NCBI GenBank assembly: GCA_020057985.1
Contig: JAGVEU010000010.1
Coordinates: forward strand, 1-11,382
Direction: 5' to 3'
DNA length: 11,382 nucleotides
Origin: Calditrichota bacterium
GTDB lineage: Bacteria; Electryoneota; RPQS01
A model generated the notes under the pieces. It was not told the DNA's origin, did no database searches, and saw nothing but the letters and a program-made list of their open reading frames with translations. Below are positions 1-11,382 of this stretch, in pieces; position 1 is the stretch's first letter, and every line of letters begins with the position of its first letter. A program made the position numbers and the translations under genes.

Positions 1-3000
1 AGAATACGTCTATTGTCCCTGATTTCGATCCGTGCACGTTCATTGCTGATAACCGCCCGCCCGAGATTCTGAATTGTAATTTTGGCGCCGGGGCCACCAT
101 GGATGGATGGGAGATTCTGAACGGCAACTTGGTGAATATTCCCAATATCGTCGGTTGCTGTGATACCCTCCGCATCTACATGCGAATCAACAATGGCTCC
201 TTTCCGGATTGGGATCCGGAGTGCCCTGGCGATGGTCGTGACGGCTCAACGTTTACAGACTATTGCCTTGTAGACCACGAAACCAACTTTGATGTCCAGT
301 ACATTGCAGTCGGTTTTGGCGAGTTCCTGCTGAGCCTTGGTTACGACAGCGCATGTTATATTAATAACGGATTCCTCCACGAACCGTTTCAGTTCGGGTC
401 CAATTGCTTAGATCTTGCTGGACCGGGGGTTCAGGATGTTTTCATAAGCAATCCGACGGACAGAAGCAATGGTTTGCTGTGGATAGACATTCCGTTCTGT
501 GCTGATGATTGGTGTGATATCGCGCAACTCTGTGTGGATATTGAAAACGACTTGGGTCGCAATATCAAATTGTGGGCTTTGGACAATGCCGGTAATGCCA
601 GCGATCAGGATCCGCTCACTCCCATCGTAGAGGGCTTGGATTGGGTACCGGCTGGCCCGGGTCTTGGTGGTGTTGAGCCTATTTGCTTTGATAACGTTCC
701 GCCACCGATTCCGCCAGATCTCTTGCCCGATGGCGCGGATATTTACTGGGAGAATGGCTATTGCGTAGTAAGGTTCTCGCCGCTGATGGAACCGGGCACA
801 TTTACTCCCGGCCGTTTCCTTAGTCCGGATTCCGTCGAGTGGCGTTTTGATTTCAGCCAAGTGGCTGAAGCGGCTCGTCCACCACAGGATCGTATTTACA
901 TGATCGGTTTCGATGTCCAAAAGGAAGCGCAACTCTTTGATACGCTGACCTGTGCGCAACCGAATTATATTAATCCGGGTTTCTTCCCGCCAACTGATGC
1001 ATCCGTTGCCTGGGGTTGGGATGGAATAACAACATCTACTTATACATGGTGGGGACGCGCGACAGCATCGTCGTTATTTGATTCGGCGGCTATGCAATAC
1101 CTCAACCTTCCGGAAAGTGATTTGGCGCGAAACTTCTGGAACTGCCCGAATGGTAATCTTGTAGGAGTTACGCTGGCTCGAATTCTCGATGCCGCAGGCT
1201 GTAATGCCGTGCTTGGGTGGGATCACAATCCGGCTACAACGTATGATGATGGATATACCATTCTAAATGCGCTCTCGCCCGTGGTGGACATTTGCGAGCC
1301 AGCGGTTTGGGATAGCGCGGGTGGTGATACCCTTATGTGCACCGACATGCCATACGTGGCTCCTTATGATCCGGATGGCGGCGGTCCACTTCCAATACTC
1401 GATCATGTCTATGTATGGCATGATGTCAATCCGCCCAATCCGAATGGTGATCCGGATCTCCGGTTTAAGCCTGAGCGCTTCTATACTCAGGGCTTGGATG
1501 TCGCCTGTCAGAAGGAAGGCCTTAGTTATCGTGTTCGCATGGAACCAATTTGGCCCTCTCCGTTTGGTTGGGGGACATGGGTGCCGGAAACTCGCTACTA
1601 CGCCGAAAGTTCTTTGGCCGATTTCTTCTACGCTTATAACGGACGATCTGTAGCAGATCCTCCATTGTACGTGCCCGTTGCATACGATCCGCTTCAGGAT
1701 GATCGCGAAGGTCCAATAGTCTCCTTTACGTGGGGCCATCAATATGCCATACTTTTCTCACCACTCCCGGACGGTCTCTATTTGATGACCCTCGAGTTGA
1801 AGGACAATGCGGGCAACATTTACGAAGATCCTATCTATATTCTGTTGGAAGGCGCTGGCCCGCTGATTTCTGATGGTCGTTTCATTGGCGACGATGTAAC
1901 CCCGTGGAATTGCCAGAATCTGTTCTTCCCGAACTTTGCGGATGCGGATGGTGATACAGTATTTGCCAGAATCACAACCGACACGACCGCAACTGAAGTC
2001 ACGTTCGATTGGAGCTGCGTGTTAGGTGACGTACGCCCGGGCATGCCGGATTCTACGGTTCTGACTCGTGACAGCGTTGCAACTCCCGGCAATCCCAACG
2101 GACATATCCTCGTCCTCGACGTTCCGTTGCCTGGCGACGCCTATCGCTTCTGGACAGCCTGGATTCTGGTAGATTTGGATCAGGTTGACTTGGGTAACAC
2201 CGACAACAATATTTATGAGTTCGACGACATAACAGCCGGTCCTGACTGCGATCAAGATCTCGACTTCTACAAGAGCGTTGAAGTTACTGTTGAAGATATT
2301 GTTGGACACGTGACAGTATTTGATCCTAGCTCGATGCCGGGACCCTTTAGCCCGACCTGTCATGCATTCCGTATCGGCCCGTCAGATTGCCCGTGGCTTC
2401 TGCCGCAGCCGACCGAGGACGACTGGTTCTCTTATGATCGCGCCCATGTGCGCCCGGGAACGCCGCCCGACTTTGGACCTTCGATTCCAGACGGACTCTT
2501 TAATGCAATCTCCCCCGGAGATATAGATGCCCAAGGTGGCAATGAGAACTGGGATGCCGATACCAATCCGGCGCAAGACGAGAATCGCGACTCAGTCTAT
2601 GTGCGTGTGTTGATTGCACGTTCGACGCTGAGTGCTGGACCGTTCCCGCCGGCAATCCCTGATACGTTGGTCTTGACGATCACGAATCCGACCATTTATG
2701 CGCCCGAACTTTTCCCGCGCGTCGTGACCGTCAAGAAGGCTCTATTAGATCCGGGTCCATTGGAACTCTGTATTCCCCCCGGTGATCTCCTTGATCTATA
2801 TAGTGGATGTCTAACTTATGTGGATCCACTTTTCCCCTTGACAAGTGATCTTATGTTCATATACCTCTGGAACGGAACGTTCTATCAGGGACCGGGCAAT
2901 GATCCTCGCATGATGGTTCCGCACCTGTTGCAGGATACCGTCGTTGTGGATGTCTATACAGTCAACTACAACAACCCGCCGACCGATACTTGCAACATCA

Positions 3001-6000
3001 TGGAAGCCTTGCTGGATGTGGACAACATCAATCCGGACTTCATTGGTGATCGCTCTGCAGATCCGGCAGATCCGTGGCCACCTGACGTTTTTGCAAAAGG
3101 AACGCAGAATCCGGCAACTCACTCTACGCCAACCGTCTATAATATGGGTTGGGATGGTGATTGCGGTTTTGTGTTCGGTGATAGCGACACCTTCCAGCTC
3201 AAAGTGCGAGTAACCGAGCAACTGCATTATGAACCGGCGGACTTAGCTGCAAATCAGACGACCGGTTCAACCCCGCCGTTTGCAGACCTTACACACCCGG
3301 TTGATGGTTGGAATAACTGGCAAGTCGCGCTTGTTGATGGTGCCACTGGCTCGCCGATTATGACCGGCGCCGGCAATCCTGTCATTCATTTGCTCACCGC
3401 CGACAGTACCATCGTTAACGGTCCCGCCGGTGAAGTGCTATATGTGGACTACGTTTTGACGGGCAGGGTTTTAACTCCCGATCCGACGTACTTCAATTCC
3501 GATGTTCATTTCATTATTCGCGGCGCTTCCGATCAAGCAGGTAATCCTGGCCTAATCGCCAATCCAGCCTGGCCGTTCAACTGCGCCTATTATAATGATA
3601 CATTCGAAGATACCAGCTTTGTCTGTGTAATCGCAAATATTGAACAGACTATTCCTGAATGCTACGAACCGGGTGGCCCGCAGATTTGGGGTCCGGATAA
3701 TATTCTCTATTGGATTGCACCCGAAGATACCGTGATTTGGTGCAAGGCGTTTGTCATTGAGACTTGCGATACCGCTTGTACAGTGAACGGGTATGCCGAC
3801 TCCGTTCATATTATTCAAGGTAACTTCCAAGGATTCCTCGGAATGTTCGGTTTCACGGATGATCCCGATCCCTGGGTGCTGAATTATGACTCATTAGAAG
3901 CATGGCAAGCTCGCTGGGTCTATAATGCGGGTCACACGGATTCCGCTCAATGCTATGGCCGCTACTATTATTGGAAACTGCGGGCAGACTCTTCTGACCT
4001 TGCAACCATTCAGTGTGACGGTTTCCAACTTCTCTTTGGAATCCGCTTCTGGACCTATACTGATCTGCCTGATGGCATTGATGTGCCCGGAAATATTCCA
4101 CCCACTTTTCTTGCTTGGTATGACTGCCTGCAGGTGGACGTCAACGAGCCGGTCTGGTCACAGCCACCATCACCGGGAGTTCAATACTACAAGGTGGTCA
4201 ATGATATTTGGGTACTTTATGGTCCCGGCGAATGTATTGATCCCAACGATACTCTGGTTATCGGACGCATTTTCAGCGATTTTAACTACAACGCAAATTG
4301 CATTTCCTATGGCATCGGCGTAGATACGAGCCTGATCTGGGGTGACATGAGTGCGTTCCACACCGGCGCTTTTGATGGTGACAGTCTGAAACCAGACAGC
4401 ATTTGGTTGAACGCTCCCAACAATAGCGAGTGGGGATGGGCTTACTGGATTATTCCCGCTGACTCGCTTGCCTATTATCGCTGCCGCGCTCAAACGGATA
4501 CCGCAGTTGTTTTCTGGGCGCTGACGGATTCCATGGGACACCATGACCGTGAGCTGTGGGTGCGTGATCCGCTCTGCCTGCTGGACGATTGCCGTCCGCC
4601 GATCATTGCCTTTGCCAATGCATTCTGCACTTGCGATTCCTTTGATGCGGCTTGGGCTGATCCCTTGAAGTTCTTGAATTATCCGCTGCCACACGTTCCC
4701 TCAGATGGTCCGATCTCGTTGTTTGTCATGGTGGTGGATACGGATGGTACTCTCGGCCTCGATGCTAACGTTTCCAATTATCAGGCCGACCTATCGGCGT
4801 TCACACTTGCGGCGCCCGGCTCATTTACTAATGCGGATGTCGCGGCCCTTTGGGGAGCGACACCTGATGACACTGCTCGCGCTGGTTGGCGCGGCGACGG
4901 CTGCGGTGGCCCTATTCCCGGCACATTGATGCTGACTCACCTTTACAACAACGGTGACACGATCTTCGTTGACTTCTACGTTTGCGACATCTCACTCAAT
5001 TGTGCGACCTACACCGATGTTCCTGTCGCTATTGTAGATCGTCAGGCTCCGGTCGTAGACTATATCTTCGTTACCGGTCAGGATTCCATCCGCGAATATA
5101 TCACTCCCGGTGACAGCATGGTCATGGTCTGGGCCGACATTACCTCGGGTCTCGGCGACATGATCACTCCCCCGGATTCGGTTTACGGTGATTTTTCGGA
5201 ATTCTGGCTTGGCAGCGCTGCTGTCGGCGCCATAGATTCGGTCAATAAGTACAAGCACCTCTATGCCAATCTGATCGAAAAAATAAACGACAATCACTAT
5301 CGTGCCTACTGGGGTTGGTATCCCGGTCCGTGGGTTGCTGATCATTCTCAGTACCCGATTCCGTATGATACTACCTCACTTCGGACGTATCTGCATGTCG
5401 CTCCTGACTTCTGCACCGCGGCACTGGGCAACTACTGGTATAGTGGCAACGGGATCTGGGATCACCTTAAAATTTATGTGACAGATCGCGCCTGCCAGAT
5501 TGATAGTAGTTACAGCGTTTACGAAATTACCGGATGCGACACTACGTCGCCGGACGTTGATAGCGTCTGGGTCTTCGGTGACCTATGCAAGGATCCCGGG
5601 ACTTCCCCGTGGATTAGTTCAACCCCGCTCGATAGCGGTCACATTGAAGTGTGGGCATGGCTTGACAGCGCCTTTAACCACATGTCTGACACGCTGCTGA
5701 TTGACTCCATGCAGGTGGACCTCTCCGGTCTTAGCCCGACTCCGTTCGATCGCTACGATACCACGGAGTGGACTCCTGCTCCCGGTTACTATGGCGGCTG
5801 GCCAGTCTATGGCACATCCTCCGATGGGACGCACGCGTTCTGGGCAATCGTGAGTTCGGGCGGTGTGAATCGTCTTGTCGCCAAGTGGACTGGCCTAACG
5901 GCTGATGGTCTGACTTGCGGCGATGAGGTTGCCGTGAAGGTGAAATCCATGCGTCAGACCGGACTCGGTGGATCGCATGGCTACTATATGGATGTGGAAT

Positions 6001-9000
6001 ACGGTTACGCCAAGGTTGACGACACCCGACCCTACATTATATTAGGCGGCGCCCCCTGGGGCATGACGGTGTATAATGAAGGTGTTGACCCGTATGTCAA
6101 CGACCATGTTAGCCCGAACTACCCTGTCTGGGTGAAAATCTGTGCAGTAGATACGGTTTGCGGAAACGATCCGAACCATGTTCCCAGCTTCGACCTACTC
6201 CCGAATGCCGGCGCACCGGATAACCCATTTATTGACTTCTGTCCAGACCCAATTAACGTTCTTCGTGATAACTGGACATGGGATCCAAACGGGGCATACC
6301 ACCACGTAGATGATACTCGCATTGACACCGTTTGTGTGTGGTGGCTTGGAACACCCAACCCGGCTCCGGTCAATTGCGGGGACTATGCTCTTGATCAGCT
6401 TGCCGGCTGTGTGACCGCGCATATTGAAGATTGCATGTCCAATCCTGCGGATCCAGCCACGTTCCGCGACAACGCAGACGACTATCCGCCGGTCTATGCC
6501 GGATACTCCAACGCTTGGGGTGATTACACCATCGAGACCGAATTCCCGGCCATTCCGGGCGCAGGGATTGACAGTGTCCTGACTCTGGGGCGCGGTCTCT
6601 ATAACCTGCAGTCGGACAGCCTCCTTATTATTAAGGTAGCGGTCGAGCACGGTCTACTAAGCGGTCCATCCATGATCAGCTTTGTGGATACGTGGATCAA
6701 TCTTGTTGTTCCGACTGCTCCGAATCCGACCTCTCCTCCGGGACAGAGCTTCATCACTAGCGGCCCGGACTTCCCGTTGGCGCACCCGGACTATGTGAAT
6801 GCGTCGCTGGATACGATCACCTGGATCATTGATCTTTATGATGCGGCCAACTTACCGTATTTCAATACGAGCTTCTCGTCCGACCGTTACTGGTTCAATC
6901 TGCAGCTCGCCGACACGTTTGGCAATATCATCGGTGTCTCGCCGAATCTTTATTGCGACGAGCACATGGACAGCATCATCACCTTCACAGTTCAAAATTG
7001 GAACTGGCCGGCTGTCTCAGCCATGGAACTGCTTTGTGATTCCAACACCATCTCCAGCGATCCGGCGCTGACGGATACGCTAAATATGGCCCTGTGGAAC
7101 AATGAGCGCATCGTTCCGCAGAAGGATGCCGCCAAAGAAAACCTCTATAAGGTGTGGCGTGTTGTCGCTCTCGATACCTTGTGGGATTGGTATTCTGCAG
7201 ATGTCAACCATGCTTTGGACGAAACCCGTTTCTTCATCTTTGTTGAAGACACCGTCATGCAGAATGACGACATTGACAATGATAATGACGGCACAGTGGA
7301 CGAAATCGGCGAAGGTGTGGACTTCTTCACTTCCGACCTGCGCATCAACGATCTGCCGCAGGTGGAGCACGTGGACTCAATGTTCATTGGCGGTTCATAC
7401 GTGAATTATCTCTGGTACGAGGATCAATACTCCGAAGGACAGTACAACGTCACGCTCTACATCAGCGACATCTTCGGTCAGCGCGACACCCTTGCGTGTG
7501 CCGACTATGCGTTGACATTCTTTGAAGATGAGACCTGTCCCTATGGAACAACACTTGATCTCTTCTCCGGAACCACCGGAGTACCGATCCGTCTGAACAA
7601 CGATGACGTATTCACTTTGAGTCTGACGAGCCTGACCTCCGATGACAGCGTATTTGTCTACTCGGCCTTTGACTCGATCCGAATTAATCTGTTCGATCCG
7701 CAAATTTTCAACAGCTTCTCGCAGCCCGGTTCCGGTGTGGATATGGATCCGAGCACGGCAGTATTCCCCGATGATACTCTGCACTGGAATGACAACCGTG
7801 CCTCTGAAATCCACCTCGAAAAATACATTGCCGGAATCTGGACGGTTGACCCGAACTGGACACAGACTGGCTATGGTCCGTTTAACACCTACGCCGTGTT
7901 GAAACAGACTGCCGGTCCAGCTCTGGATAATGGCGAATATCGCATTCATGTTCTCGGTCTCGATAATCTTGCCAACGAGTGCGATTATTACTGGCCGTTT
8001 ACTCTCGATCTCCGCTGCCTTGTGGATAGCGTGTATGTGACTCAGACCGGACACGTGGAATCGGTTACCGATCTCCATGCGGTTTGGGATTACGTGGAAG
8101 TCAAGGCCGATGTCTTTGATCCGGGTGACCTGATTGACAGTGTGAAGTTTGAATACTGCTTCGATGCGAACCGCGACGGCATTCTCGACGGCGTTCCATT
8201 CTGGCAAACCACCAACCTCCTCACACCTAATGGCGATGGTAAGGACTTTACCTATCCGTTCGCAGGTTACTTGATCGTCAGCAATCTGCCGTGGACTGGC
8301 TCCGACACCCTCGGCATGCCTTCCGTCGAAGATAACTGCACAAACACCTACTTTATTAAGGTGACTTCGTGGGACAACTACGGTCATTCCTGTGTGCATA
8401 TGGTTACTGTGACCGTCATTGATGACATCGCTCCGCTTGCCTACATTCAGGCCGTTGACGGCAACGAGCCTCCGCAGGGTGATATCGTTCCGTGCTTCAA
8501 CCCGCGAGTGAATCCGCAGGACTCCGTTATTGTGGTAGACGCTTGCGACTCCATTGGTGGACACTATGATCCATTACCGGATTGGTTCCAGCAGCATTTC
8601 GCTCCCCATTGGTTCGATATGGGCTGGGGTGTCTTCCAGTACAAGCGTCTTGCAGATCAAACTTGGACCAACATCTGGACCGGCACACCCGGTCAGGATA
8701 CGACCACCTTCCGTTCGCCGGTGGACTCCTGCTTCCATATTCGTTGGAACATCGCCGACCTGACGAGTGGTCAGTATAACCTCCGATTCCTCGCCTTTGA
8801 CGTTTGCGGGAATTCTGACGTGACCAATACGCCCATCGTCACCTTCCGCATCGAATGTGATACGACCAATCCGATTGCCTCCATGATCTTCCCGTACCAG
8901 AACAATTGGGTGCGTGATTGGATCTGCGAAGATAATGGTCTGCTCTTCGTAATGGCGAATGTGCCCTTCTACGCCGATGTAGACTCTGTGGCTTTCTTCT

Positions 9001-11382
9001 ATGTGGACACCACCAGCATTCCTGATACGTCGCAAACTGTGTTTATCGGCGGAACGCGCACTGTATACTATCAAGTTCCTGAGTGGTATAAGCAGTTCAA
9101 GGTAAATGACTGGGATACCCGCAATCTACCTTCGGGCTGGTACAATCTCTACGCGGTTGCCTATGACGCGCAGGGGAACTACGACCACAATCCGCACGAT
9201 CTTGGTGTGTACTGGGTCTATGTAGATAACACTCCACCGACAACTGCACCGTGCTGGATCTCTGATCCTGACAACCCAAATCCCTATGCTGAGATTGACT
9301 CAACGTGGTCTGACTCAATGGTCGTACTGCGTGCAAGAGCTTCGGACTTTGGCGCTACTTGGGACCGTATCAGATGGGTAGAGTTCGAGGTCTTGAACCG
9401 CTTCGGGATCTGGGATAGCCTAAAGAATTATACTGACTACTATGCACTGTATGATGCCGATGTCAGCGTTGGAAGGGATGTCGGCGCGACGGATGGCCAA
9501 TCTCGCGACCCGTCTCCTGAATGGTATTATGATCCCAGTACAGATGAATGGCACTATGTCTATGAAGTCTACGTGAAGCTCAGCGACTTCGGAGACAGCC
9601 CGCTTCAGAATATTCGCTTCCGCGCCTTTGCGGCGGACTATCCGGATTACGGATCCTCTAATATCGAAGGCGATAACAATCGCGACTGTAACGTAGATCG
9701 CGACGCCAGCGATCCCAATCGTCCGCCACTCTGCAGCACAACCTTGTGGGTGCGCGATCCGTTCCCGCCAGCAACTCACCTCTATGCCTACGAAGAGGCA
9801 GGATTCTCCCAGAATTTGCCTTACTGGAATAACGACAAGCGAGTTGAGAATGGTGATCGGTTTGGCTGCATTTATCCGTATGACATCAGCAATCTTCTCT
9901 TGATTTCATGGTATGAGGATGCTCTGCCAGATACCGATAATTGGCTCATGAACTTCACAGTTCAGTTTCACAACGGTTATGACGCGAGCGGCCCGGTTGT
10001 CTTTGACAGTACAGGCTATGTGCCGAATGATATTCTCCTCAATCCGAGCGCTCCGCATCTGGGTCCGATACCATTGCTGAATGCCTATGACAGTGTGTAT
10101 GTCATCTGGACTACGATTTATAACGATATCCAGAATATCGCCTCTGCGCATGGCTTGACGAACGTTGACCTCACCTTCAGTTCTTGGGTGAGCGATCTCA
10201 CCGGCGATGTCATGTTGCCGGCAGCCACGAACTTCACAATTACATGGGACTGCCAAGTGCCGCAGTGTGAGGTTCAGCGACCTGAACTCGGCTGGATACT
10301 TGAGTCCATTAACGGTAATCCAGGTACCTATGCTGAGCTTTTTGGTTGGATTCGGAACGACTTGCCGGCGAATCGTGAGCTTCTGCTGGGTGGCATTGTC
10401 GATCTGTATCAGACAAGATGGGGCTGGCAACGTGACGGAGATGGATCAATTTTCCGCACGGGTATGACCGGTACTCACGCCGATACCGGATGGGTGCGCG
10501 CTGACGGCGGCATACGTTCGGCTAACCCGCCGACACCGCCGTATGGCGACTGGATCAACGTCTCCTGGAACACAACAGTATTCCGCACGATTCAGCAGTA
10601 TTTGGCGGGGACCGGTACGATAGTTCTACAGGTGACGGACGACGTCGGCAACATGGGTAGCTGCACGGTGCCGATCACTGTAGACAACGAAGCGCCCAAT
10701 ACCCCGATTACTCATGCTCATTTCTTCTATAATGACGGTGGTGGTGAAGCGACTCGTCGCGATACCCTCATGGCCATTCCGTGGAACGACAATGTGCCCG
10801 ATACCATCGAGGTGATCTATAACCGTCACGTTGCTCCCGGCCAGAATGATCCGGAAGCCGAAGTGATCTTCTACTGCGATGCTACTGCGATCACCAATTG
10901 CAGTGGCTTGCCGACACAGGTCTTTAATGTTCAGCTTTGGGATCTGACAAATAGCAAGTTCCTCGGGTATGTCTGCCCGACCAGTCCGAGTTCATGGTTC
11001 GCCCCGTTGAGCAAAGCTGACGGCTTTGACCAGTATCCGCCCGAAGCCGATGACCGGTACGAAGTTGGTCTCCTACTCGACAATACCTACACACCGGGTG
11101 TCTACAACTTTGCTTTGGTTGCCGATGATTTTTGGCACAACAAAGAAGGTGACGTAGATCTCGACGAAGTGCTCGAAGTTGGTACAGATAATACTCACAT
11201 TGATTTGTGGGTCCGCGTCGCCAACGTGAACGAGCCGGTGGTTGAGTTCCGTACTCCAAGCTATTTGAATACTTGCGTCCACGGAACTGTTCCGCTGGGC
11301 GCTGAGAACGTAAGCACTCCAAGTCACTTCAGCGGTGTTATTGACTCCGTCGTCTTCTATGCAGAGGGCTTCGGACGACTTG
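1..11382 (+). CDS. Internal fragment of a giant multidomain Ig-like repeat surface protein (both ends outside window)
   Basis: Codons begin at base 3; bases 1-2 end a split codon. The frame has no stop in about 3,793 codons, so window residue n starts at base 3n. No start can be chosen: in-frame ATGs exist, but the frame is already open upstream of all of them. No signal peptide, transmembrane helix or C-terminal sorting domain is visible, as expected for an internal piece. Diverged beta-rich units carry D-S-V-x-[VF] strands, G-x-Y-N-type strands ending in D-x-x-G-N, and Pro-containing V-D-[DN] linkers. This is typical of bacterial Ig-like (Big) repeats in secreted proteins. I hand-count about 132 Trp, 85 Cys and 44 Lys, with abundant Asp, Asn, Pro and Tyr: a very acidic, Cys-containing extracellular protein. 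I see no complete catalytic domain. A structural or adhesive surface role is inference. That the frame is coding is near certain; the function is not. Confidence 0.96.
48..689 (+). other. Protein module, residues 16-229: Cys-rich Ig-like unit
   Basis: The unit opens with the linker D-N-R-P-P (residues 16-20), which also marks the end of a preceding unit cut by the window edge. It ends with L-W-A-L-D-N-A-G-N (residues 190-198), the usual last-strand signature of bacterial Ig-like repeats, followed by D-N-V-P-P (from residue 230). A tight cysteine group lies at C166, C171 and C177, and an adjacent C-C pair sits near residues 53-54, suggesting disulfides. The unit is longer than a standard Ig-like repeat of about 90 residues, so it may hold one domain with long loops or two domains. 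Confidence 0.5.
690..1850 (+). other. Protein region, residues 230-616: two diverged units with an atypical central segment
   Basis: The region starts at the D-N-V-P-P linker and carries the strand P-D-S-V-E-W-R-F (residues 275-282). It ends in a well-preserved last-strand motif, D-G-L-Y-L-M-T-L-E-L-K-D-N-A-G-N (residues 590-605). Between them, residues 320-435 look unlike the neighbouring beta units. They hold two G-W-D segments, at residues 338-340 and 405-407, and a stretch with helix-like patterning between residues 355 and 425. A short acidic N-G-D-P-D-L segment follows near residue 484. The boundaries inside this region are uncertain. Confidence 0.4.
1851..4136 (+). other. Protein region, residues 617-1378: poorly conserved beta-rich units
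   Basis: Module boundaries are hard to see here. Strand-like landmarks include D-A-D-G-D (residues 646-650), D-S-V-Y-V-R-V (863-869), G-W-D-G-D-C (1049-1054), L-K-V-R-V (about 1065), and V-H-F-I-I-R-G-A-S-D-Q-A-G-N (1168-1181), the clearest Ig-like last strand in the region. D-S-V-H-I-I (from 1266) is another. Asp, Pro, Trp and Cys remain common throughout, so it appears to be the same kind of protein as the later modules. I estimate four or five units of 130-230 residues, but the count is inference. Confidence 0.4.
4137..5039 (+). other. Protein region, residues 1379-1679: two Ig-like units joined by an L-W-V-R-D-P linker
   Basis: The region opens with D-V-N-E-P-V-W (residues 1379-1385), a linker seen again near residue 3741. 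The first unit ends in F-W-A-L-T-D-S-M-G-H, a degenerate form of the D-x-x-G-N strand, followed by L-W-V-R-D-P (1518-1523). The second unit begins in a Cys-dense patch (C1525, C1530, C1542, C1544). It ends with a strand pair containing F-V-D-F-Y-V-C-D and then the linker I-V-D-R-Q-A-P (1677-1683). These features place each unit in the bacterial Ig-like class, although sequence conservation is low. Confidence 0.5.
5040..6026 (+). other. Protein region, residues 1680-2008: two Ig-like units
   Basis: The first unit (residues 1680-1846) starts at R-Q-A-P-V-V-D-Y and carries I-T-P-G-D-S and P-D-S-V-Y-G. It ends at H-L-K-I-Y-V-T-D-R-A-C (from 1821). The second unit starts at C-D-T-T-S-P-D-V-D-S-V-W-V-F (residues 1845-1858), the most typical domain opening in this part of the protein. 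It has A-V-K-V-K-S-M in its last strands and closes at V-D-D-T-R-P (2005-2010). Each unit is about 160 residues, longer than compact Ig-like repeats, with aromatic- and Gly-rich loops. Confidence 0.55.
6027..7013 (+). other. Protein region, residues 2009-2337: two units, the first with a dense cysteine cluster
   Basis: The region follows the V-D-D-T-R-P linker. Seven cysteines fall within 98 residues (C2047, C2053, C2080, C2111, C2125, C2136, C2144), unlike the one or two per 100 residues elsewhere. D-S-V-L-T-L (from residue 2190) and L-L-I-I-K-V-A-V (about 2208) look like core strands. A Pro-rich linker near residues 2236-2246 separates a second unit, which ends in F-N-L-Q-L-A-D-T-F-G-N (2297-2307), a good Ig-like last strand. 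Confidence 0.45.
7014..7529 (+). other. Protein module, residues 2338-2509: Ig-like unit with a calcium-loop insert
   Basis: The unit includes a locally Lys-rich stretch (K at about residues 2375, 2378 and 2383), unusual in this Lys-poor protein. An EF-hand/thrombospondin-type-3-like acidic loop follows at residues 2425-2437. The last strand is G-Q-Y-N-V-T-L-Y-I-S-D-I-F-G-Q (2479-2493), a close match to the repeating G-x-Y-N signature with the final Asn replaced by Gln. Confidence 0.55.
7275..7313 (+). other. EF-hand/dockerin-like acidic loop 1 (residues 2425-2437)
   Basis: The residues read D-N-D-N-D-G-T-V-D-E. Asp falls at loop positions 1, 3 and 5, Gly at 6, a hydrophobic residue at 8 and Asp at 9, then I-G-E-G. 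This fits the D-x-D-x-D-G calcium-coordination pattern of EF-hand, dockerin and thrombospondin type 3 loops, although position 12 is Gly and Glu comes one residue later. Calcium binding is inferred from the pattern. Confidence 0.6.
7530..8021 (+). other. Protein module, residues 2510-2673: Ig-like unit
   Basis: The unit follows the E-D-E-T-C-P linker. It contains D-D-S-V-F-V-Y (from residue 2547) and ends with G-E-Y-R-I-H-V-L-G-L-D-N-L-A-N (2644-2658), a recognisable version of the recurrent last strand. Cysteines are few and confined to the end. The longest antisense shadow frame (7395-8564) overlaps here but has no protein-like features of its own. Confidence 0.55.
8022..8432 (+). other. 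Protein module, residues 2674-2810: Ig-like unit with EF-hand-like loop
   Basis: The unit opens with V-D-S-V-Y-V (2674-2679). D-S-V-K-F-E-Y-C-F (from 2712) leads directly into an acidic loop at 2721-2729. The last strand is F-I-K-V-T-S-W-D-N-Y-G-H-S (2784-2796), and the unit closes at V-I-D-D-I-A-P (2805-2811). The overall order, D-S-V strand, V-x-F-x-[VY]-D strand with loop, then Y/F-x-h-x-h-x-x-x-D-N-x-G, matches the bacterial Ig-like pattern. Confidence 0.6.
8163..8195 (+). other. EF-hand/dockerin-like acidic loop 2 (residues 2721-2731)
   Basis: The residues read D-A-N-R-D-G-I-L-D-G. They give Asp/Asn/Asp at positions 1, 3 and 5, Gly at 6, Leu at 8 and Asp at 9, an almost canonical dockerin-type calcium loop. 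It sits between two beta strands of an Ig-like module, so it is more likely a metal-stabilised loop than a dockerin domain. I see no paired second loop at dockerin spacing. Confidence 0.6.
8433..8867 (+). other. Protein module, residues 2811-2955: well-preserved bacterial Ig-like domain
   Basis: The module runs from the V-I-D-D-I-A-P linker through D-S-V-I-V-V-D (2840-2846) to the core W-N-I-A-D-L-T-S-G-Q-Y-N-L (residues 2915-2927) and F-L-A-F-D-V-C-G-N (2929-2937). It ends with F-R-I-E-C-D-T-T-N-P (2948-2957). The combination W-[DN]-[TI]-x-x-L-x-x-G-x-Y, then A-x-D-x-x-G-N, is characteristic of Big_7-type repeats. Cysteines in the last two strands (C2935, C2952) may pair with each other or with upstream cysteines. 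Confidence 0.7.
8868..9230 (+). other. Protein module, residues 2956-3076: best-preserved Big_7-like Ig domain
   Basis: This is the clearest domain in the window, and at about 121 residues the most compact. It has A-D-V-D-S-V-A-F-F-Y-V-D (2991-3002), W-D-T-R-N-L-P-S-G-W-Y-N-L (3037-3049) and A-V-A-Y-D-A-Q-G-N (3051-3059), then closes with Y-V-D-N-T-P-P (3073-3079). The order and spacing follow the usual bacterial Ig-like Big_7 pattern, in which an x-x-V-x-F-x-V-D strand precedes W-D-T and A-x-D-x-x-G-N. It is the best segment to use as a query for the other units. Confidence 0.75.
9231..9758 (+). other. Protein module, residues 3077-3252: Ig-like unit with a cysteine-bearing acidic loop
   Basis: The module follows the V-D-N-T-P-P linker. 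M-V-V-L-R-A-R-A-S-D-F-G-A (from residue 3107) is a B-strand-like segment, and V-E-F-E-V-L (about 3127) is the next strand. I-R-F-R-A-F-A-A-D-Y (from 3203) is the last strand, into which an acidic loop at 3224-3234 is inserted before L-W-V-R-D-P (3248-3253). That ending repeats the one at residue 1518. Tyr and Trp are frequent around residues 3140-3190. Confidence 0.5.
9672..9713 (+). other. EF-hand-like acidic loop 3 (residues 3224-3237)
   Basis: The residues read D-N-N-R-D-C-N-V-D-R-D-A-S-D. Coordinating side chains stand at positions 1, 3, 5, 9 and 11, with Val at 8, as in the other two loops. The glycine normally found at position 6 is replaced by Cys3229. Calcium binding is therefore less certain, and the cysteine may instead tether the loop by a disulfide. 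Confidence 0.45.
9759..10262 (+). other. Protein module, residues 3253-3420: diverged Ig-like unit
   Basis: The module starts after L-W-V-R-D with P-F-P-P. It has M-N-F-T-V-Q-F (from residue 3317), D-S-V-Y-V-I-W (3363-3369) and V-D-L-T-F-S-S-W-V-S-D-L-T-G-D (3385-3399), a degenerate last strand. It closes with F-T-I-T-W-D-C-Q-V-P (3411-3420), and a Cys pair (C3417, C3422) sits at the junction. It lacks a clear A-x-D-x-x-G-N motif, so the assignment rests on position and strand order. Confidence 0.45.
10263..10691 (+). other. Protein module, residues 3421-3563: well-preserved Ig-like domain
   Basis: Strands include I-N-V-S-W-N-T (3518-3524), equivalent to the W-D-T/W-N-I core of the two best modules. 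G-T-I-V-L-Q-V-T-D-D-V-G-N (3538-3550) is an excellent last-strand signature, followed by V-P-I-T-V-D-N-E-A-P (3556-3565) as the closing linker. The front half (3423-3510) is Gly/Arg/Trp-rich and has more basic residues than usual, including W-G-W-Q-R near 3475. Confidence 0.65.
10692..11231 (+). other. Protein module, residues 3564-3743: Ig-like unit
   Basis: The unit begins at N-E-A-P-N-T-P and ends with G-V-Y-N-F-A-L-V-A-D-D-F-W-H-N (3699-3713), a strong match to the recurrent G-x-Y-N signature. A short acidic G-D-V-D-L-D-E insert (about 3716-3722) precedes the final strand D-L-W-V-R-V-A-N-V-N-E-P-V (3734-3746). That strand merges the L-W-V-R and V-N-E-P-V linker elements seen separately near residues 1518 and 1380. 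Confidence 0.6.
11232..11382 (+). other. Start of a further Ig-like unit, cut by the window end
   Basis: After the V-N-E-P-V linker the sequence continues with a Cys (C3759), then D-S-V-V-F-Y-A (3781-3787), the usual early strand of a unit. The window ends in the following loop with the frame still open, so at least one more module, and probably more, lies downstream. Confidence 0.6.

Follow-up and report, generated by a model that had tools for sequence, protein, structure and literature searches.

The window analysed here, a stretch of 11,382 bases that forms an entire contig (C485) of the Calditrichota bacterium genome G000 (assembly GCA_020057985.1), is an internal part of one very long gene. 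Its product is very probably a giant secreted surface protein. By analogy with the SprB-SprF pair of Flavobacterium johnsoniae, we consider it likely that this protein is exported by the type IX secretion system (T9SS) and held at the surface by an anchor of its own, a PorV-OmpA protein encoded by the next gene. It differs from huge bacterial surface proteins already described in the conservation of its gene across an order and in the PorV-OmpA partner.

One very long gene in the window and its relatives

Re-translation of the window revealed frame +3 to be devoid of stops across 3..11381 (11,379 bases, 3,793 codons), the remaining five frames carrying 130, 259, 161, 48 and 194 stops. At the stop densities of the remaining forward frames, a chance origin of frame +3 is excluded. 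A single plus-strand frame is therefore open throughout the window, as originally predicted, and the in-frame stop that had been named as evidence against it is absent. Since contig C485 consists of the window alone, both gene ends are cut by the assembly. The gene and its longest antisense frame are placed as follows.

3..11381, + strand: giant gene, internal part (N-terminal half, with start and stop outside); open frame, stop-free ortholog matches, collinear with the ortholog of genome G011.
7395..8564, - strand: longest antisense frame (389 aa), a shadow rather than a gene; stops in the long antisense ortholog matches among those listed.

The two halves of the frame, searched separately against 99 genomes with G000 itself counted, matched in 12 (first half) and 8 (second half), all in the same order, and none of the matches contains a stop. 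The gene is complete on one contig in G001 (7,289 codons), G006 (7,502), G010 (7,799) and G011 (7,834), measuring 22–23.5 kb when counted from the first possible start; the true start is likely some tens of codons downstream, where a hydrophobic segment is conserved by eye. The original prediction that the gene continues beyond the window thus holds, and the size exceeds the lower bound then given. The window aligns in collinear order with the N-terminal half of the G011 protein (3,443 positions, 44.5% identity), corresponding to about residues 318–3954 of its 7,834; this placement derives from the half-window matches and the G011 alignment, the window end being poorly placed in the MAFFT alignment. 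The window part is present in nine genera of the order, with a short form in a tenth, and a profile of most of its second half matched 11 of 39 phylum genomes, two of them marginally (G007, E 4.2e-4; G032, E 3.7e-4).

Between the congeners G006 and G010, the ratio of nonsynonymous to synonymous substitution rates (dN/dS) is 0.167 over 7,420 codons, ranging from 0.091 to 0.274 across ten blocks; the ratios are approximate, dS (1.0–1.8) being near saturation. These substitution rates indicate purifying selection on the giant gene in the one pair measured. We give almost no credence to an artefact of assembly or a frame left open by accident, an explanation favoured by the fragmentation of this metagenome-assembled genome (MAG; 2.89 Mb, 537 contigs, 56.5% complete) and opposed by the selection signal, by the shadow-like behaviour of the antisense frame rather than frame +3, and by collinear orthologs in independent assemblies, one of which (G006, seven contigs) carries the gene within a 989-kb contig. 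Because of the same collinearity, a chimeric assembly of the window appears unlikely. Repeats inside the window comprise 59 direct-repeat families (the 20 listed each with two or three copies, short and diverged) and two tiny arrays detected by TRF, so the window is not an obvious product of repeat collapse.

The first description of the other long frames as shadows of the giant frame is supported. When the 389-aa antisense frame was compared by tblastn with five ortholog loci, the matches listed included three long antisense ones (28–34% identity), all three with stops, and four short ones (26–58 aa) without stops. In each of the five sequences examined, one antisense frame has few stops (48 stops in 3,793 codons of the window, 14 in 7,289 of G001), probably owing to codon bias.

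C-terminal domain, PorV-OmpA partner and secretion machinery

A search of G000 with the remainder of the G011 protein retrieved two further contigs, C184 (5,333 bases, open throughout, 1,777 codons) and C427, whose frame is open up to a stop codon (1,405 codons); no counterpart of G011 residues 3955–5965 was found by this search. The contigs C485, C184 and C427 appear to carry pieces of one gene, exemplifying how short-contig MAGs hide giant genes. A tandem unit of ~220 aa, located by a motif from this genome, is present in four copies in C184, three in C427 and four in one G012 contig, and in none or one in 18 other sequences of the set. Both C184 and C427 end, by eye, inside this unit, so the assembly probably broke there. 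We estimate the protein in this genome at roughly 9,000 residues (~27 kb), its larger size being due to expansion of the tandem unit. The units in C184 and C427 are immunoglobulin (Ig)-like and reflect a lineage-specific expansion that affects the C-terminal part of the gene.

The C-terminal domain (CTD) of this genome's giant, on C427, reaches 23.0 bits with TIGR04183, just at the cut-off of 23, and the PorU model matches it with its own CTD end (E 2.9e-18). Local alignment of 10 giant CTDs with three PorU CTDs and five ordinary CTDs gave scores of 93–173 and 35–119, respectively, ranges that overlap; nine of the 10 score higher with their best PorU CTD than with their best ordinary CTD. At the level of sequence, then, the giant CTD resembles that of PorU, the T9SS sortase.

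Directly downstream of the giant gene, a protein of ~480 aa is encoded, composed of a PorV/PorQ-family N-terminal part and a C-terminal OmpA domain. All three partners tested pass the PorV_fam model NF033709 (cut-off 90), with 104.3 bits in G011, 125.5 in G001 and 112.2 in G007, and the OmpA domain of the G011 partner scores 72 bits. The giant gene is followed by the PorV-OmpA gene in 11 of the 13 order genomes (G000, G001, G002, G003, G004, G005, G006, G007, G010, G011 and G012); in G008 and G009 the contig bearing the partner has no giant CTD, and contig ends hide the junction. Outside the order, the best partner match in the 13 phylum genomes searched does not reach 100 bits and is confined to one of the two domains. 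Among the papers listed by literature searches, none describes a PorV-OmpA fusion in its title or abstract opening, which does not prove its absence in print, and a search on T9SS outside Bacteroidota listed nothing pertinent.

SprA, the T9SS translocon, is encoded on contig C139 of G000 (838 bits, cut-off 200) and exceeds the cut-off in 15 of the 16 genomes searched, with G005 as the miss. PorU-like proteins were identified in G006 (258 bits) and G011 (298 bits). The gene after the PorU-like gene in G011 is of the PorV family (96.7 bits, cut-off 90), and neighbours in G006 and on G000 contig C361 match the PorV part of the query with 43 and 50 bits, these being query matches rather than a family scan. 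Two more PorV-like genes lie a few kb from sprA in G006 (L137:10827-12685; 123.2 and 75.3 bits against the PorV family cut-off of 90).

These components bear on two other fates for the protein. T9SS might export the giant and PorU might then remove its CTD, releasing it as extracellular matrix, sheath or S-layer-like material. The PorU-like proteins of G006 and G011 and the polysaccharide-type genes after the locus would suit such release, which we nevertheless regard as unlikely: a dedicated PorV-OmpA gene adjoins, and in nine of the 10 comparisons the CTD is nearer to PorU's own than to ordinary CTDs, the former being retained by Porphyromonas gingivalis PorU after secretion (PMC11285876).

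The giant might instead be a mobile gliding adhesin, moved over the surface like F. johnsoniae SprB, with PorV-OmpA in the role of SprF. SprB is a 669-kDa adhesin that needs SprF, a barrel encoded by the adjacent gene, for secretion and attachment (PMC9143113, PMC12618676), and the size class, the CTD and a partner barrel gene directly downstream all recall this pair. We judge gliding quite improbable. GldM was found in none of the 13 order genomes, an absence that is unproven because nothing matched in any genome and a positive control was lacking; PorP/SprF exceeded the cut-off in none of the 13, with weak matches in four, and this absence too is unproven, no control genome being positive. 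The neighbour is instead of the PorV/PorQ family, and an OmpA-type peptidoglycan anchor would argue for a fixed position.

A proposed route of export and anchoring

The protein encoded by the window is acidic, with 13.7% D+E against 4.2% K+R and a net charge of -360, compared with -3 for SprA of the same genome. Cysteine accounts for 2.2% of its residues, against 0.1% in SprA, and in the first half 17 cysteines do not vary across an 11-row alignment in which some rows are shorter than the half. Three Ig-like modules were located, with E-values that are optimistic because the Ig profile was partly trained on these same proteins.

1671..1835, + strand: Ig-like module, residues 557–611; iterated profile E 4.8e-6, profile-profile E 9.6e-7 (best reversed target 0.056).
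7800..8006, + strand: Ig-like module, residues 2600–2668; iterated profile E 1.6e-5, profile-profile E 1.2e-9 (best reversed target 0.67).
8973..9224, + strand: Ig-like module, residues 2991–3074, overlapping a Big_3_3 match (residues 3036–3081); iterated profile E 2.6e-7, profile-profile E 1.9e-8.

Pfam Big_3_3 (cut-off 27) scores 28.0 bits for the second half and 24.8 bits for the whole window, with no single stretch passing alone, and Big_13 scores 43.2 bits within the last 1,304 residues of the G011 giant. At E 0.05, Pfam left the first half unmatched in 10 of 11 sequences, the eleventh giving one weak Big_13 match, and the NCBIfam scan of the window protein returned no family. The product may be pictured as a surface protein that is strongly acidic, contains cysteine and carries Ig-like modules.

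Export through T9SS with the PorV-OmpA partner is, in our assessment, probable. The giant would first leave the cytoplasm by the Sec pathway via an N-terminal signal peptide, as suggested by a hydrophobic, signal-peptide-like start that is conserved by eye in relatives; the start in this genome lies outside the contigs found. It would then cross the outer membrane through SprA, directed by its PorU-like CTD, and the CTD would be captured by the product of the neighbouring gene, the PorV/PorQ-family barrel. Since P. gingivalis PorU retains its CTD once secreted, the giant would probably remain attached to this barrel rather than be cut free. The barrel's own OmpA domain would finally tie the complex to peptidoglycan, yielding a long static fibre that could serve in adhesion or in contact with a matrix. 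For this last role, a static adhesin or scaffold, we see an even chance.

Several observations weigh against the proposed route. The CTD and partner of this MAG lie on a contig different from the window, and its PorV-OmpA gene is cut after 58 codons, its family being read from relatives. TIGR04183 is barely at the cut-off here and falls below it in G011 (18.9 bits); the G012 giant CTD scores 119 with an ordinary CTD against 117 with PorU CTDs; and the tree uniting giant and PorU CTDs has moderate rather than strong support (83/79). The PorU-like proteins remain below the cut-off of the PorU model (258 and 298 against 420 bits). The window lacks a clear Pfam domain, and AlphaFold2 models, each run with one ortholog row, are too poor for use, with mean predicted local distance difference test scores of 39.8 (residues 2590–3190) and 27.3 (residues 1130–1760). 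Export, binding and anchoring are themselves steps that we infer from sequence.

The locus follows the plan of known systems with different components. Like SprB-SprF, it joins a very large surface protein with a C-terminal T9SS signal to a barrel partner gene directly downstream; unlike that pair, its CTD is PorU-like and matches the type A model, its partner is a PorV/PorQ-family protein fused to OmpA, and neither PorP/SprF over the cut-off nor GldM was detected, with the lack of positive controls noted above. A surface CTD protein of P. gingivalis is held jointly by the barrel PorP and by PorE, which binds peptidoglycan (PMC9143113). The proposed arrangement would resemble this PorP-PorE-PG1035 system, in which an outer-membrane barrel holds the CTD protein and an OmpA-type domain provides the link to peptidoglycan; there the barrel and OmpA-type proteins are separate, whereas here they form one polypeptide with a PorV/PorQ-family barrel. 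The partner would unite in one protein two functions divided in P. gingivalis between PorP and PorE, which offers a straightforward way to test how T9SS cargo can be anchored. The PorU-PorV attachment complex (PMC11285876) is a further parallel, with a PorU-like, perhaps uncleaved CTD and a PorV-family partner, and in G011 a PorV-family gene likewise comes directly after the PorU-like gene; unlike PorU, the G011 giant has no sortase domain that we could find, and the partner carries an OmpA domain in addition.

Bacteria are already known to make huge proteins and surface proteins with Big domains, and strain specificity has been reported for giant bacterial genes (the latter relayed in PMC11573180, which also covers the former). 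The present giant shares their size class and extracellular Ig-like make-up; it differs from the reported huge Big-domain proteins in being syntenic across an order and apparently under purifying selection. Its retention in one place across the order, together with purifying selection in one pair, points to a lasting cell-surface role. More speculatively, and with odds below even, a T9SS without detected GldM or SprF/PorP might hold a fibre of 7,000–9,000 residues by a PorU-derived, uncleaved CTD seated in a private PorV-family barrel, whose fused OmpA would fix the complex to the cell wall and make one polypeptide both shuttle and anchor; the distal part, including the window, would then be exchangeable, as G007 keeps only a start and a C-terminal portion next to the same partner.

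Natural variants and neighbouring genes

G007 encodes a short natural form of 2,310 aa (L130:8818-15747) in the same place, followed by the PorV-OmpA gene, and this protein matches the C-terminal part of the G011 giant. Neither half of the window matched G007 in the 99-genome search, and the profile gave one marginal match (E 4.2e-4). With nearly all of the window region missing and the CTD and partner kept, the window region is dispensable in that species.

A von Willebrand A domain is present in the G011 giant gene (L044:17693-18163). We compared other genomes in which both flanks of the site were matched, and in all eight (G001, G002, G004, G005, G006, G007, G010 and G012) the flanking matches lie at most ~40 bases apart. 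The domain is thus a G011-specific insertion among the genomes compared, and the idea of an adhesin based on it was rejected.

Neighbouring genes were characterised by Pfam for G011 and for the G001 PvlArgDC gene, the others being judged by sequence ends. After the locus in G011 come an FG-GAP-repeat gene and sugar-nucleotide or polysaccharide-type genes. Upstream, a gene resembling the G011 arginase-family gene precedes the giant in all 12 order genomes in which the 5' end was read (all but G000), preceded in most by spermidine-synthase-like and helix-turn-helix (HTH)-cupin-like genes. The region 5' of the giant thus holds a polyamine-type cluster, comprising in G011 (L043:16768-20034) an HTH-cupin regulator, a spermidine synthase and an arginase-family protein, with PvlArgDC in G001.
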